A stretch of DNA of 64,000 nt, from contig CP138355.1 in NCBI GenBank assembly GCA_033584155.1, forward strand, positions 2,427,826-2,491,825. The letters run 5' to 3'. This stretch comes from Candidatus Electrothrix scaldis (GTDB lineage: Bacteria; Desulfobacterota; Desulfobulbia; Desulfobulbales; Desulfobulbaceae). Shown piece after piece: positions 13,854 to 17,198 of this stretch (positions are counted from its first letter, which is position 1; each line of letters begins with the position of its first letter). The notes beneath the pieces are model-generated. The model was not told the DNA's origin, did not search any database, and worked only from the letters and a program-made list of their open reading frames with translations. The position numbers and the translations under genes were made by a program.

Positions 13854-15593
13854 ATGAATTTAGCAGGATTTGAGAAGATAGCCCCACATCTTGCCAACCC
13901 ATTAGTCCTGGTGGGCTTTGTGATGCTGTTGGCTTACGCGATACACTGGCAGCTGATGAAGTCCGGGCTGCTGCGGCAGGTGACCCAGAAGGACAGCAGC
14001 CTGATCATCCGGCTCTTTCTCCGCTACGGCTTTTGGCTGGCACTGGCGTTGCTGCTGGCGGGCTTTGGCTTGGCGGGGTGGACCAAGTACATGGACACGG
14101 AGCAGGTTATCTCGGTCAATGCGGGCAAGCTGGCCAGAGAGATGGTTGGGCCGTTGCAGGGGCAGCTTGAGGCCAAGGACGAGCAGATCAAGGCCCTGAC
14201 CGAAGCCATTCAGGCTCTGTCCAAGACCGGCGCGCCTGTTGCCAGCATCAACGCGGCCTTGCGTGCTTTGGAGCAGGGTGATACCAGGGAGGCCAAGGCC
14301 ATCTTTGCCCAGGTGTTACGGACCAAGGAGGCCGAAGGCAAGCAGGCCAATAAGGAGGCTGCTGCCGCTGCCCGGCATTTGGGGGCATTGGCGTATATGA
14401 ACAATCCCTTGGAGGCCCTGGTTCATTACCAAAAGGCTGTGCAGCTTGACCCGGATAATGCTGCAGATTGGACTTGGCTGGGTAATCTGCTTCAGCGGAC
14501 AGGGGAGCTTACAGGGGCGGAAGAGGCGTACCGCAAAGTGCTGGCCCTGGCAGAAGCGCATCAGGATAAACAGGAGCAGGCATGGGCTCTGGGCAATCTG
14601 GGCCTTGTGTATTATACACGCGGGGAGCTGGACAAGGCCGAGGAGATGCATCGGAAGGCTCTGGAGCTGAATGAAGCTCTGGGCAGCAAGGAAGGCATGG
14701 CACTGAATTACGGCAATCTGGGCATTGTGTATTCTACACGCGGGGACCTGGACAAGGCCGAGGAGATGTACCGGAACGGTCTGGTGCTTGATGAAGAACT
14801 GGGCAGGAAGGAAGGCTTGGCTGCGAAGTACGGCAATCTGGGCAATGTGTATCGGACACGGGGGGAGCTGGACAAGGCCGAGGAGATGTACTGGAAGAGT
14901 CTGGAAATCAGCGAGGCTCTGGGGCTGAAGGAAGCAAGTGCAGGGCTGTACGGCAATCTGGGCATTGTGTATTCTACACGCGGGGAGCTGGACAAGGCCG
15001 AGGAGATGTACCGGAAGAGCCTGGAGATCAGCGAAGCCTTGGGCCTGAAGGAAGTAAGTGCAAGGCAGTACGGCAATCTGGGCCTTGTGTATTATACACG
15101 CGGGGATCTGGACAAGGCCGAGGAGATGTACCGGAAGAGCCTGGAGATCAGCGAAGCCTTGGGCCTGAAGGAAGTAAGTGCAAGGCAGTACGGCAATCTG
15201 GGCCTTGTGTATTATACACGCGGGGATCTGGACAAGGCCGAGGAGATGCATCGGAAAGGTCTGGTGCTTGATGAGGCTCTGGGCAGAAAAGAAGGCATGG
15301 CAGCAAAGTACGCCAATCTGGGCAATGTGTATCAGACACGCGGGGAACTGGACAAGGCCGAGGAGATGCACCGGAAGGCTCTGGAGCTTAATGAAGCACT
15401 GGGTAGCAAAGAAGGCATAGCTAGAGACCACGCCAATCTGGGTGTTCTGTACGAGCAACGCGGCAACCTTGCTCAGGCGGAAGAGGTATGGAGGAAGAGT
15501 CTGGGCCTGTATCAGGAAATAGGGATGCCGGATGCCAAGGACATTCAGCAATGGCTGGATGAGCTGGCCCAACAGCGCAGCAGCAGCCGATAG
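13854..15593 (+). CDS. Membrane-anchored TPR protein with near-identical repeats
   Basis: 579 residues. Two N-terminal transmembrane segments (~14-34 and ~56-76) are followed by a helical linker and about ten TPR units. From residue ~247, the 40-residue consensus NLGxVYxTRGELDKAEEMYRKxLExxEALGxKE repeats eight times, encoded by 120-bp DNA units. Such kinesin-light-chain-like TPR arrays bind proteins; the partner is unknown. Both transmembrane segments sit at the N-terminus, so the array probably faces the cytosol or periplasm as one large domain. The gene starts nine bases after the Rpn-type gene. Repeat number is likely variable through recombination. Confidence 0.8.
   Translation: MNLAGFEKIAPHLANPLVLVGFVMLLAYAIHWQLMKSGLLRQVTQKDSSLIIRLFLRYGFWLALALLLAGFGLAGWTKYMDTEQVISVNAGKLAREMVGPLQGQLEAKDEQIKALTEAIQALSKTGAPVASINAALRALEQGDTREAKAIFAQVLRTKEAEGKQANKEAAAAARHLGALAYMNNPLEALVHYQKAVQLDPDNAADWTWLGNLLQRTGELTGAEEAYRKVLALAEAHQDKQEQAWALGNLGLVYYTRGELDKAEEMHRKALELNEALGSKEGMALNYGNLGIVYSTRGDLDKAEEMYRNGLVLDEELGRKEGLAAKYGNLGNVYRTRGELDKAEEMYWKSLEISEALGLKEASAGLYGNLGIVYSTRGELDKAEEMYRKSLEISEALGLKEVSARQYGNLGLVYYTRGDLDKAEEMYRKSLEISEALGLKEVSARQYGNLGLVYYTRGDLDKAEEMHRKGLVLDEALGRKEGMAAKYANLGNVYQTRGELDKAEEMHRKALELNEALGSKEGIARDHANLGVLYEQRGNLAQAEEVWRKSLGLYQEIGMPDAKDIQQWLDELAQQRSSSR
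14592..15551 (+). repeat. Eight 120-bp tandem repeats within the TPR gene
   Basis: Units begin with GG(C)CAATCTGGG at 14592, 14712, 14832, 14952, 15072, 15192, 15312 and 15432, an exact 120-base period. The stretch 15001-15120 is identical to 15121-15240, indicating a very recent duplication. The last unit is the most diverged. Confidence 0.9.
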
Positions 15594-15761: not shown

Positions 15762-15868
15762 GATCGTAGGATCGGGCCAATCTCGATCACGTGATCGGGC
15801 CGAGCTCGATCGTACGATCGGGGTAAGCTCGATCATATGATCGGGTCAGGTTTGATCGCAGGATCGGG
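15762..15868. repeat. Five-unit 23-bp array of GATC-N4-GATC palindromes
   Basis: GATC-N4-GATCGGG occurs at 15762, 15785, 15808, 15831 and 15854, exactly 23 bases apart. The N4 centres are GTAG, ACGT, GTAC, ATAT and GCAG; three are themselves palindromic, so those units are perfect 12-bp palindromes. The seven spacer bases after GGG differ between units. Ten GATC sites lie in 104 bases. The array ends 130 bases before the HU-like gene. It is likely a multi-site protein-binding region or operator; function is inferred. Confidence 0.75.
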
Positions 15869-15908: not shown

Positions 15909-15937
15909 TTGACAAAGCCCGCATGCCGCTCTACGGT
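15909..15937 (+). promoter_or_regulatory. Candidate sigma-70 promoter for the DUF4469 gene
   Basis: TTGACA at 15909-15914, 17-base spacer, TACGGT at 15932-15937. A perfect -35 with a weak -10. It lies just downstream of the 23-bp array and 60 bases before the gene. Confidence 0.45.
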
Positions 15938-15998: not shown

Positions 15999-17066
15999 AT
16001 GTCAACCGTACAATGGCGACCGTATGAAAATGCCCTGACCACCCCCCGCTCCTACAAACCACAGGTGATTCCCAAGGATACAAACGGATATAAAGAGCTC
16101 TCCGAGGCGATTTCCCAGGAAAATCCGCTCTGGAGCGCGGATATGGTGGAGTCGATCCTGCGCAAGCGGGATGAGAAGGTCATGGAGATGCTGCTTAACG
16201 GCGATCAGGTCTCTCTGGAAAACAGCTTTACCTATCATCTCACCCTGGCGGCCCGTCTGGATGCACCGGACGCCTCTCTGCCGCCGGCGGATGAATGCGT
16301 TCGGGTCAAGATCTATGCGGCCAGGGCCTTTGTGGAGAAGGTGCAGCAGCTGGTGCAACTGGAACGGCTGGCCCCGACCAGGAAGACACCGGTGATTGCC
16401 GGGGCCAGGGACACGGTGCTCCGGCTCGCCAATGTACTCAATCCCAATGGGCTGTTGCGCCTGAGCGGTACTGACCTGTTCTTTGATCCTGATGATGCGG
16501 AGACCGGCTGCCTGCTTGAGGGCACCCGGAGCGGCAGGGCCGTACAAACCCGTTACGGCTCCATCAGCAACAGTGAGGTTCAGGTGATACCGGATATCCC
16601 GGCCCAGAACGATCCGTGGAATAATGAGTACCGGGTGTCGGTCATGACGCAGTACACCGAGCACGGCAGTCTGCGCACCGGCACCTATGGTCGCCCGCTG
16701 CGCACCCCGCTGACCGTGACCCTGGGCAACGGGGACGGTATCCTCAGCGGGGCGAACAGGAATCCCCTGGTCACGGTAACGAGCGGTAACCTTGCAGGGG
16801 ACAATGCGCAGGTGCGGATTCAGGCGGTCCTGAACAGTCAGTCCGGTGAGCTGCGCCTCAATCTCCTGGACATGCGGGAGAACGGCGAACAGGCCGACGC
16901 GGTCAGTGTGGGCGGCAACGGGACCTATACCCTGCCCGATCTTGCCGGTTCCGGCCTGAGCGGGCTGGAGGTTGATGTGCAGAACGCCGCTGCTCTGGAG
17001 GAGCTGGTCAGGACAAACTACGGCGGCAGGTTGGTGGATGTCCTTAGTGTGCAGGCAGGAGGTTAA
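15999..17066 (+). CDS. DUF4469 / HU-like DNA-binding-domain protein
   Basis: 355 residues. The first ~120 resemble the Bvu_2165-type IHF/HU-like domain (opening VQWRPYENALTTPRSYKPQVIP, central SADMVESILRKRDEKVMEMLLNGDQV). Residues ~135-230 fit DUF4469 (NPNGLLRLSGTDLFFDP, then NEYRVSVMTQYTEHGSLRTGTYGRPLR), and the C-terminal third is beta-rich, possibly Ig-like. Family members are annotated as DNA-binding. The unusual palindromic array directly upstream may be its binding site, which would allow autoregulation; this is inference. It is flanked by a terminator at 17161, so it is probably monocistronic. Confidence 0.75.
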   Translation: MSTVQWRPYENALTTPRSYKPQVIPKDTNGYKELSEAISQENPLWSADMVESILRKRDEKVMEMLLNGDQVSLENSFTYHLTLAARLDAPDASLPPADECVRVKIYAARAFVEKVQQLVQLERLAPTRKTPVIAGARDTVLRLANVLNPNGLLRLSGTDLFFDPDDAETGCLLEGTRSGRAVQTRYGSISNSEVQVIPDIPAQNDPWNNEYRVSVMTQYTEHGSLRTGTYGRPLRTPLTVTLGNGDGILSGANRNPLVTVTSGNLAGDNAQVRIQAVLNSQSGELRLNLLDMRENGEQADAVSVGGNGTYTLPDLAGSGLSGLEVDVQNAAALEELVRTNYGGRLVDVLSVQAGG

Positions 17067-17160: not shown

Positions 17161-17198
17161 AGCCCCGCTTCTTCTCATTTCTGAGGCGGGGCTTTTTC
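17161..17198 (+). terminator. Rho-independent terminator after the DUF4469 gene
   Basis: AGCCCCGC stem, 17-base loop, GCGGGGCT, then TTTTTCT. Its position argues against a start at 17130 for the downstream PheA-TyrA gene. Confidence 0.85.

Follow-up and report, generated by a model that had tools for sequence, protein, structure and literature searches.

The array and its genomic setting

The genome of Candidatus Electrothrix scaldis is circular and 5.09 Mbp in size (PMC10926707). The assembly used here (G000, the host genome) is one contig of 5,089,909 bases, and its nearest relatives in genome collections are Candidatus Electrothrix, Candidatus Electronema and a Desulfobulbaceae bin, which makes the host a cable bacterium; the other genomes compared include G001, G002, G005 and G016, and individual family loci and their motifs are labelled with L-numbers (L023, L149, etc.). 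The window is the whole stretch of DNA that was analysed (64,000 nucleotides), and positions refer to it unless marked G000. Between a gene for a TPR protein and a gene for a 355 aa HU-HIG-like protein lies a short tandem array of palindromes, with the following features:

13854–15593, + strand, TPR-protein gene, upstream neighbour of the array and co-duplicated with it; at most a candidate part of the mechanism
15762–15868, + strand, array of five 23-bp units, (C)GATC-N4-GATCGGG plus an 8-base spacer
15767.5, 15790.5, 15813.5, 15836.5 and 15859.5, dyad centres of the array
15909–15914, + strand, -35 hexamer TTGACA, conserved across the family (101 of the 119 members), in most cases 84–91 bp before the ATG
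15932–15937, + strand, -10 hexamer TACGGT, 17 bp after the -35 hexamer; family consensus TAnnnT
15999–17066, + strand, HU-HIG-like gene, 355 aa
15999–16373, + strand, HU domain (residues 1–125), the sequence of which covaries with the array motif
residues about 126–242 of the 355 aa protein, DUF4469 Ig-like domain
residues 243–355 of the 355 aa protein, C-terminal beta-rich domain
17161–17198, + strand, terminator-like inverted repeat AGCCCCGC...GCGGGGCT followed by a T-run, read from the sequence; its 17-base loop is outside the limits of the simple scan of the region

The units GATC-N4-GATCGGG begin at 15762, 15785, 15808, 15831 and 15854, in steps of exactly 23 bp, and are the five palindromes before an HU-like gene that were described in the original prediction, except that the spacer, given there as seven bases, is eight bases when counted after GATCGGG. 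The half-sites are constant, the centres (in order GTAG, ACGT, GTAC, ATAT and GCAG) and the spacers vary, and since a C precedes GATC in four of the five units, the half-site is better written as (C)GATC. From the end of the array it is 40 bp to the TTGACA hexamer and 131 bp to the ATG. A simple consensus promoter scan of the region returned no promoter, the -10 hexamer being weak by consensus, so the promoter call rests on conservation within the family. Preceded by a promoter-like sequence of its own and followed by a repeat that resembles a terminator, the HU-HIG-like gene has the appearance of a one-gene transcription unit.

Two other identities for the array were rejected. A plasmid iteron origin is at odds with its chromosomal position on a single contig, among genes for TPR, HU-HIG and prephenate dehydratase proteins, and a CRISPR array with its 15-base unit and 8-base spacer; the CRISPR arrays elsewhere in the host genome use another repeat. 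The TPR gene contains about seven near-identical 120-bp coding repeats (14592–15418), a sign of recent repeat expansion, and just upstream of it is a gene for a PD-(D/E)XK nuclease family transposase (PF12784; 12982–13845).

The HU-HIG-like protein and its distribution

The window protein resembles the HU-DNA_bdg, HU-HIG and DUF4469 models of Pfam, all with scores below the cut-offs (PF14848, 20.1 bits; PF18291, 19.0 bits; PF14734, 19.4 bits at residues 138–223 against a cut-off of 22.6, a model that three of seven members match), and a family paralog at G000 4284380 clears the PF14848 cut-off. An AlphaFold2 model has a mean pLDDT of 71, with low values in its middle part, and the solved structure that matches it best is that of BVU_2165 from Bacteroides vulgatus (PDB 4FMR; Foldseek E 1.4e-10 over 254 columns). 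The modelled HU part (residues 1–128) aligns with 4FMR at a VIA Z of 9.8 (119 residues, rmsd 3.6), and residues 29–118 appear to share the fold of many HU structures, among them IHF, HU, TF1 and Hbb (Z 7–8.6). The C-terminal domain, modelled alone (pLDDT 79), gave no convincing solved relative (best Z 5.7). Judged by the model, the protein has the traits of the HU-HIG/BVU_2165 family (PF18291, PF14848, PF14734), that is, a predicted N-terminal HU-type domain fused to an Ig-like DUF4469 domain. It differs from that family in its greater length (355 aa), its extra C-terminal domain and its sub-threshold Pfam scores, and in belonging to a cable-bacterium family with 14–33 paralogs per genome and private arrays. 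Classical HU/IHF members are about 90–100 aa long, and an identity as one of these was rejected for a protein of 355 aa with two further domains; they are not known to form an orthogonal series of specificities in which the operators are tandem arrays.

Relatives were found in 10 of 57 genomes, namely seven of the eight of an Electrothrix-type genus and three of an Electronema-type genus, or 10 of the 11 cable-bacterium genomes, with 14–33 paralogs and up to 33 matching stretches in each. A search of the other 46 Desulfobulbales genomes gave no family member, and a phylum-wide search with PF14848 outside the cable bacteria gave only weak matches, mostly to HU-sized proteins. Searches of phage and plasmid collections with the window protein gave no match in either, and a mobile phage or plasmid origin was dropped. 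No paper was found in the literature on this HU-HIG/DUF4469 family in cable bacteria or on its arrays.

Family-wide 23-bp arrays

For 119 full-length members, the 420 bp upstream of each gene were scored for tandem arrays by column likelihood, a score above 15 being taken as a strong array. The window array scores 53.9. Shuffling the family upstream regions 2380 times never gave more than 8.6, and the remaining 420-bp tiles of the window do not exceed 5.2, so the array is not a chance arrangement. Across the family, the mean autocorrelation is 0.40 at a lag of 23 and 0.38 at a lag of 46, against 0.24–0.27 elsewhere. Strong arrays at a period of 23 bp precede 97 of the 119 members (47/59 and 50/60 in the two genera), while any other period from 12 to 40 gives at most two, and 101 members outscore all of the shuffles. 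In six further members an array can be recognised in which the steps are 22 or 24 bp, and about 12 have no visible array. The 23-bp arrays extend even to a subfamily only 20–30% identical to the window protein. The claim of a dedicated operator, with half-sites read at a fixed spacing and tied to the HU-like gene, gains from the sequence comparison in that nearly all of the paralogs have a 23-bp array of their own.

Family arrays contain 3–11 units and fall into about 34 motif classes. Palindromicity has a median of 0.65, compared to 0.33 in column-permuted controls, and 67 of the 97 strong arrays exceed the 95% level. Among these 67, 62 have an even dyad, and the conserved bases are at ±2.5–4.5 and ±6.5–8.5 with a dip between; that different letters occupy the same places suggests a single kind of reader whose specificity has changed.

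Near-perfect repeats in some arrays show that tandem duplication does happen, and neutral duplication or a cluster of GATC methylation sites could be proposed as the whole explanation. Constant half-sites with variable centres and spacers, a single period across about 34 motif classes, and a phase that is likewise constant across unrelated motifs make this barely credible. Most of the motifs also lack GATC, so a Dam/SeqA-type cluster was rejected and the earlier suggestion of an adenine-methylation target gains no support; what the paralogs share is the 23-bp palindromic array.

Sequence readout and covariation with the HU domain

Changes between units of the same palindromic array were counted by half-site: 299 hit one half-site and 20 hit both, where 12 double changes are expected from independence. 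Of the 20, 10 stay complementary, 138 of the 299 one-sided changes lose even G-U pairing, and sense-RNA wobble is not in excess. Since the changes are one-sided and uncompensated, sequence rather than hairpin structure appears to be under selection. The idea that RNA hairpins or DNA cruciforms are the selected feature draws on the palindromic nature of most arrays and on the ability of HU proteins to bind cruciforms, but it is highly improbable given the 299 one-sided against 10 compensated changes, the location of the window array upstream of the promoter, and the outcome of the Rfam search, in which no family reached threshold and the matches were far below it.

Motif similarity between paralogs is at chance below about 60% protein identity and usually high above 70%, which is why a regression on the domains over all protein pairs of the family gave no signal. 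Repeated on pairs of 60–97% identity, it gave a standardised coefficient of 0.49 for HU-domain identity (bootstrap 0.31–0.69), against 0.18 for the Ig domain and 0.01 for the C domain, and the best single protein columns for covariation with the motif are in the HU domain. Chimaera-like pairs follow the same pattern: L091 and L102 are alike in the Ig (0.87) and C (0.88) domains and differ in the HU domain (0.58) and motif (0.21), and L024 and L076 have the Ig and C domains in common but not the HU domain or motif. There are counterexamples (L057/L118, L088/L103 and L080/L106), in which HU domains of 0.82–0.85 identity go with different motifs, and because the HU end of the gene is physically nearest the array, the correlation could reflect mere linkage.

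Phase with the promoter

The arrangement TTGACA-N17-TAnnnT is found in 101 of the 119 members, and the last dyad of their arrays lies 25.5–26.5, 48.5–49.5, 71.5–72.5, 95–97 or 118.5 bp upstream of TTGACA, or about 26 + 23k. The window array occupies the second of these slots (49.5 bp, i.e., 26.5 + 23). Among 24 distinct motifs, 17 deviate from this phase by no more than 3 bp (Rayleigh p about 6e-4), and with strict representatives (protein identity <0.62) the signal is weaker, 14 of 18 arrays being in phase (p 0.007).

The slot closest to the promoter, where the dyad precedes the -35 hexamer by about 26 bp, corresponds to about -61.5, the position of a class I activator. Class I activators such as CRP act from -61.5, and the family arrays resemble such autoregulatory operators in having dyad sites upstream of -35 in a fixed helical phase. 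They differ in their three to eleven contiguous 23-bp sites, their HU-type reader and their occurrence in a paralog family with another motif for each paralog. Arrays in such a position would suit activation or a wrapped complex better than steric blocking, and regulation may be of either sign.

Copies of the array in the host and sister genomes

Arrays of the single-unit pattern occur at only three places in the 5.09-Mb host genome: in the window, at G000 1174402–1174516 and at G000 1627507. The second is a 97%-identical duplicate of the window array, the TPR gene, array and HU gene having been duplicated as one block (G000 1172827–1175714). The third is a remnant of two to three units followed by a fragment of the same HU-HIG-like gene, and is syntenic in the sister genome G005. 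The pattern has three further isolated matches in the genome, and a reversed control pattern has one.

The expectation that related genomes carry arrays at orthologous loci was borne out, as the G001 ortholog has four units of the same GATC motif; the G002 ortholog has an altered motif, CGATCATACTATCGG. In G005, GATC units are part of a composite array that ends 28 bp from the stop codon of a lepA-like gene, in a neighbourhood that lacks family genes. Among the 57 genomes, the GATC double unit is present only in G000, G001 and G005, and a scan of Desulfobulbales lacking the family, made for this GATC motif only, found none.

Remote and composite arrays

For arrays of any motif, 1.64 Mb of the host genome was scanned. 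Matches were discarded where they lay over a CRISPR array (402746) or inside a coding LRR gene (1421520), were weak (612172, 1207937 and 3910578), or consisted of poly-C/G or N runs. About 14 of the arrays are gene-linked. For about 17 others the closest family gene is over 13 kb away, and almost all of this second group resemble a family array (similarity 0.68–0.94, compared to 0.45 for the 99% level of chance). About half of these remote arrays have an intact cognate gene in the host genome, and for the other half the cognate is found only in other cable bacteria. They sit in tandem or convergent gaps between genes, many having their start no more than about 30 bp from a stop codon, and a small number being flanked by convergent genes. 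Some are composites that hold two motifs in an unbroken 23-bp register: five L149 units then 11 of L143 (G000 459600–459967), three L108 units then five of L028 (G000 1422167), and seven L140 units then units of another motif (G000 376263). Two remote positions were compared between genomes and are common only to the closest sister, G005, so the turnover of remote arrays is fast.

Occurrence of the array at many unrelated sites, raised beforehand as an argument against a dedicated operator, applies in part: family-motif arrays are also present elsewhere in the chromosome, which makes the system broader than a single private operator. Arrays that lie near stop codons or between convergent genes are left unexplained by promoter control, and about half of the remote arrays have motifs for which this genome lacks an intact cognate gene; a role in marking the chromosome would have room here. 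The cognate protein might bind arrays mainly as a sequence-specific nucleoid protein, with the arrays serving for nucleation or bridging, so that the chromosome is folded or marked, and the gene-side array being merely one site among many, or one that sets the protein dose. The remote arrays, numbering about 17 in 1.64 Mb, mostly with family motifs and in tandem or convergent gaps, are in keeping with this, as are the composites, yet architecture alone needs no phase, and the gene-side arrays are phase-locked to the promoter across many motifs. Nor do the two remote positions shared only with the closest sister look like conserved architecture, and we regard this alternative as rather unlikely.

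REP/BIME elements and plasmid iterons are likewise short palindromes or repeats of about the same size, and the remote arrays would fit scattered, extragenic 3' palindromes. If the arrays were a dispersed REP-like family read by another factor, the HU-HIG genes would be just one preferred neighbour; the frequent abutment on stop codons, the fast turnover and the strong association with STAND/TPR genes are all compatible with such an origin. The gene-linked arrays do not fit it. In over 80% of the family the array keeps to one defined location and phase, the motif covaries with the HU domain, and the GATC double unit, the one motif scanned for, is absent from Desulfobulbales without the family. 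The arrays further differ from REP/BIME and iterons in their exact 23-bp head-to-tail register, paralog-specific motifs and promoter phasing, and they are chromosomal and without a replication gene. A REP-like origin is accordingly rated as quite improbable.

A proposed autoregulatory address system

The reading we favour, at a rough probability of a little over 60%, is that the window array is a private operator of the adjacent HU-HIG-like protein, rows of dimers regulating the protein's own promoter. One dimer would read each dyad-symmetric unit, and dimers placed side by side every 23 bp would make up an unbroken row of nucleoprotein whose phase is fixed relative to the gene's sigma70-type promoter, with about 26 bp between the nearest dyad and the -35 hexamer downstream of it; the protein may in this way regulate its own gene through the adjacent array. 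The cassette (array, promoter, HU-HIG gene and terminator) would have multiplied to 14–33 copies per genome in most cable bacteria, each copy drifting or being selected to a different half-site, so that the paralogs would be largely insulated from one another. As almost all have their own promoter-phased 23-bp array with a different motif, each paralog probably regulates through its own DNA address, and the proteins probably also occupy arrays of their own motif elsewhere on the chromosome, where their effect may be other than promoter control. Counting against an operator is the textbook view of HU/IHF proteins as architectural proteins, HU proteins being mostly only weakly sequence-specific. 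The original idea of an operator is largely right, then, with a family-wide system rather than a single site as its object and GATC as an incidental motif.

More tentatively, the family as a whole may form an address system of one protein to one array, in which paralogs from a lineage-specific expansion, diversified in DNA specificity through the HU domain, share a 23-bp register and composite arrays serve as combinatorial addresses, controlling the paralogs and other sites, including CRISPR and STAND/NLR-like loci. If true, the 14–33 HU-type paralogs, each with its own operator but all in one register, would offer a ready-made library for learning how the HU fold reads sequence. They would also represent a layer of regulation peculiar to these multicellular, electricity-conducting bacteria, which are genetically not yet tractable. 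Paralog-array pairs are open to tests in vitro or in E. coli, for which culture of the organism is unneeded.

Genes adjoining arrays

Arrays are strongly associated with STAND/TPR/LRR genes, which include NB-ARC or NACHT with TPR, CHAT-TPR and Roc-COR-LRR types. Within 1.43 Mb, six of 11 STAND/NLR-like or TPR loci have an array within 322 bp (G000 587478, 817022, 1103697, 1172827, 1361750 and 1419820; further cases are at 2794924 and 3381071), and seven of 23 arrays are involved, compared to about 2% expected. The Roc-COR-LRR gene at G000 1419631–1422374 is flanked by two 23-bp arrays, each at a distance of 3 bp, one on the start side and the other on the stop side.

Three of the five CRISPR clusters in the 1.64 Mb have a 23-bp array 101–243 bp away, one of these three loci having been chosen for its array:

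G000 402125–403098, CRISPR locus, array on the leader side
G000 437078–437565, CRISPR locus, array on the leader side
G000 3483604–3484014, CRISPR locus, array on the leader side

Two of the three arrays have the L023 motif, and one of those two is without a family gene. It is possible that HU-HIG proteins control CRISPR loci, or that a block was duplicated. In G016, the divergent family gene L150 (G016:C2) is embedded in a CRISPR array, whose repeat is identical to the left and right of the gene.

Of a family gene of the L148 type, no more than the C-terminal part could be located (G000 864586–865032), and arrays of the L148 motif class persist at G000 2954 and 816632. At G000 727412–729239, an array following a fumarase gene is broken by a transposase-bearing insertion, and the same array is intact in G005 (L263).
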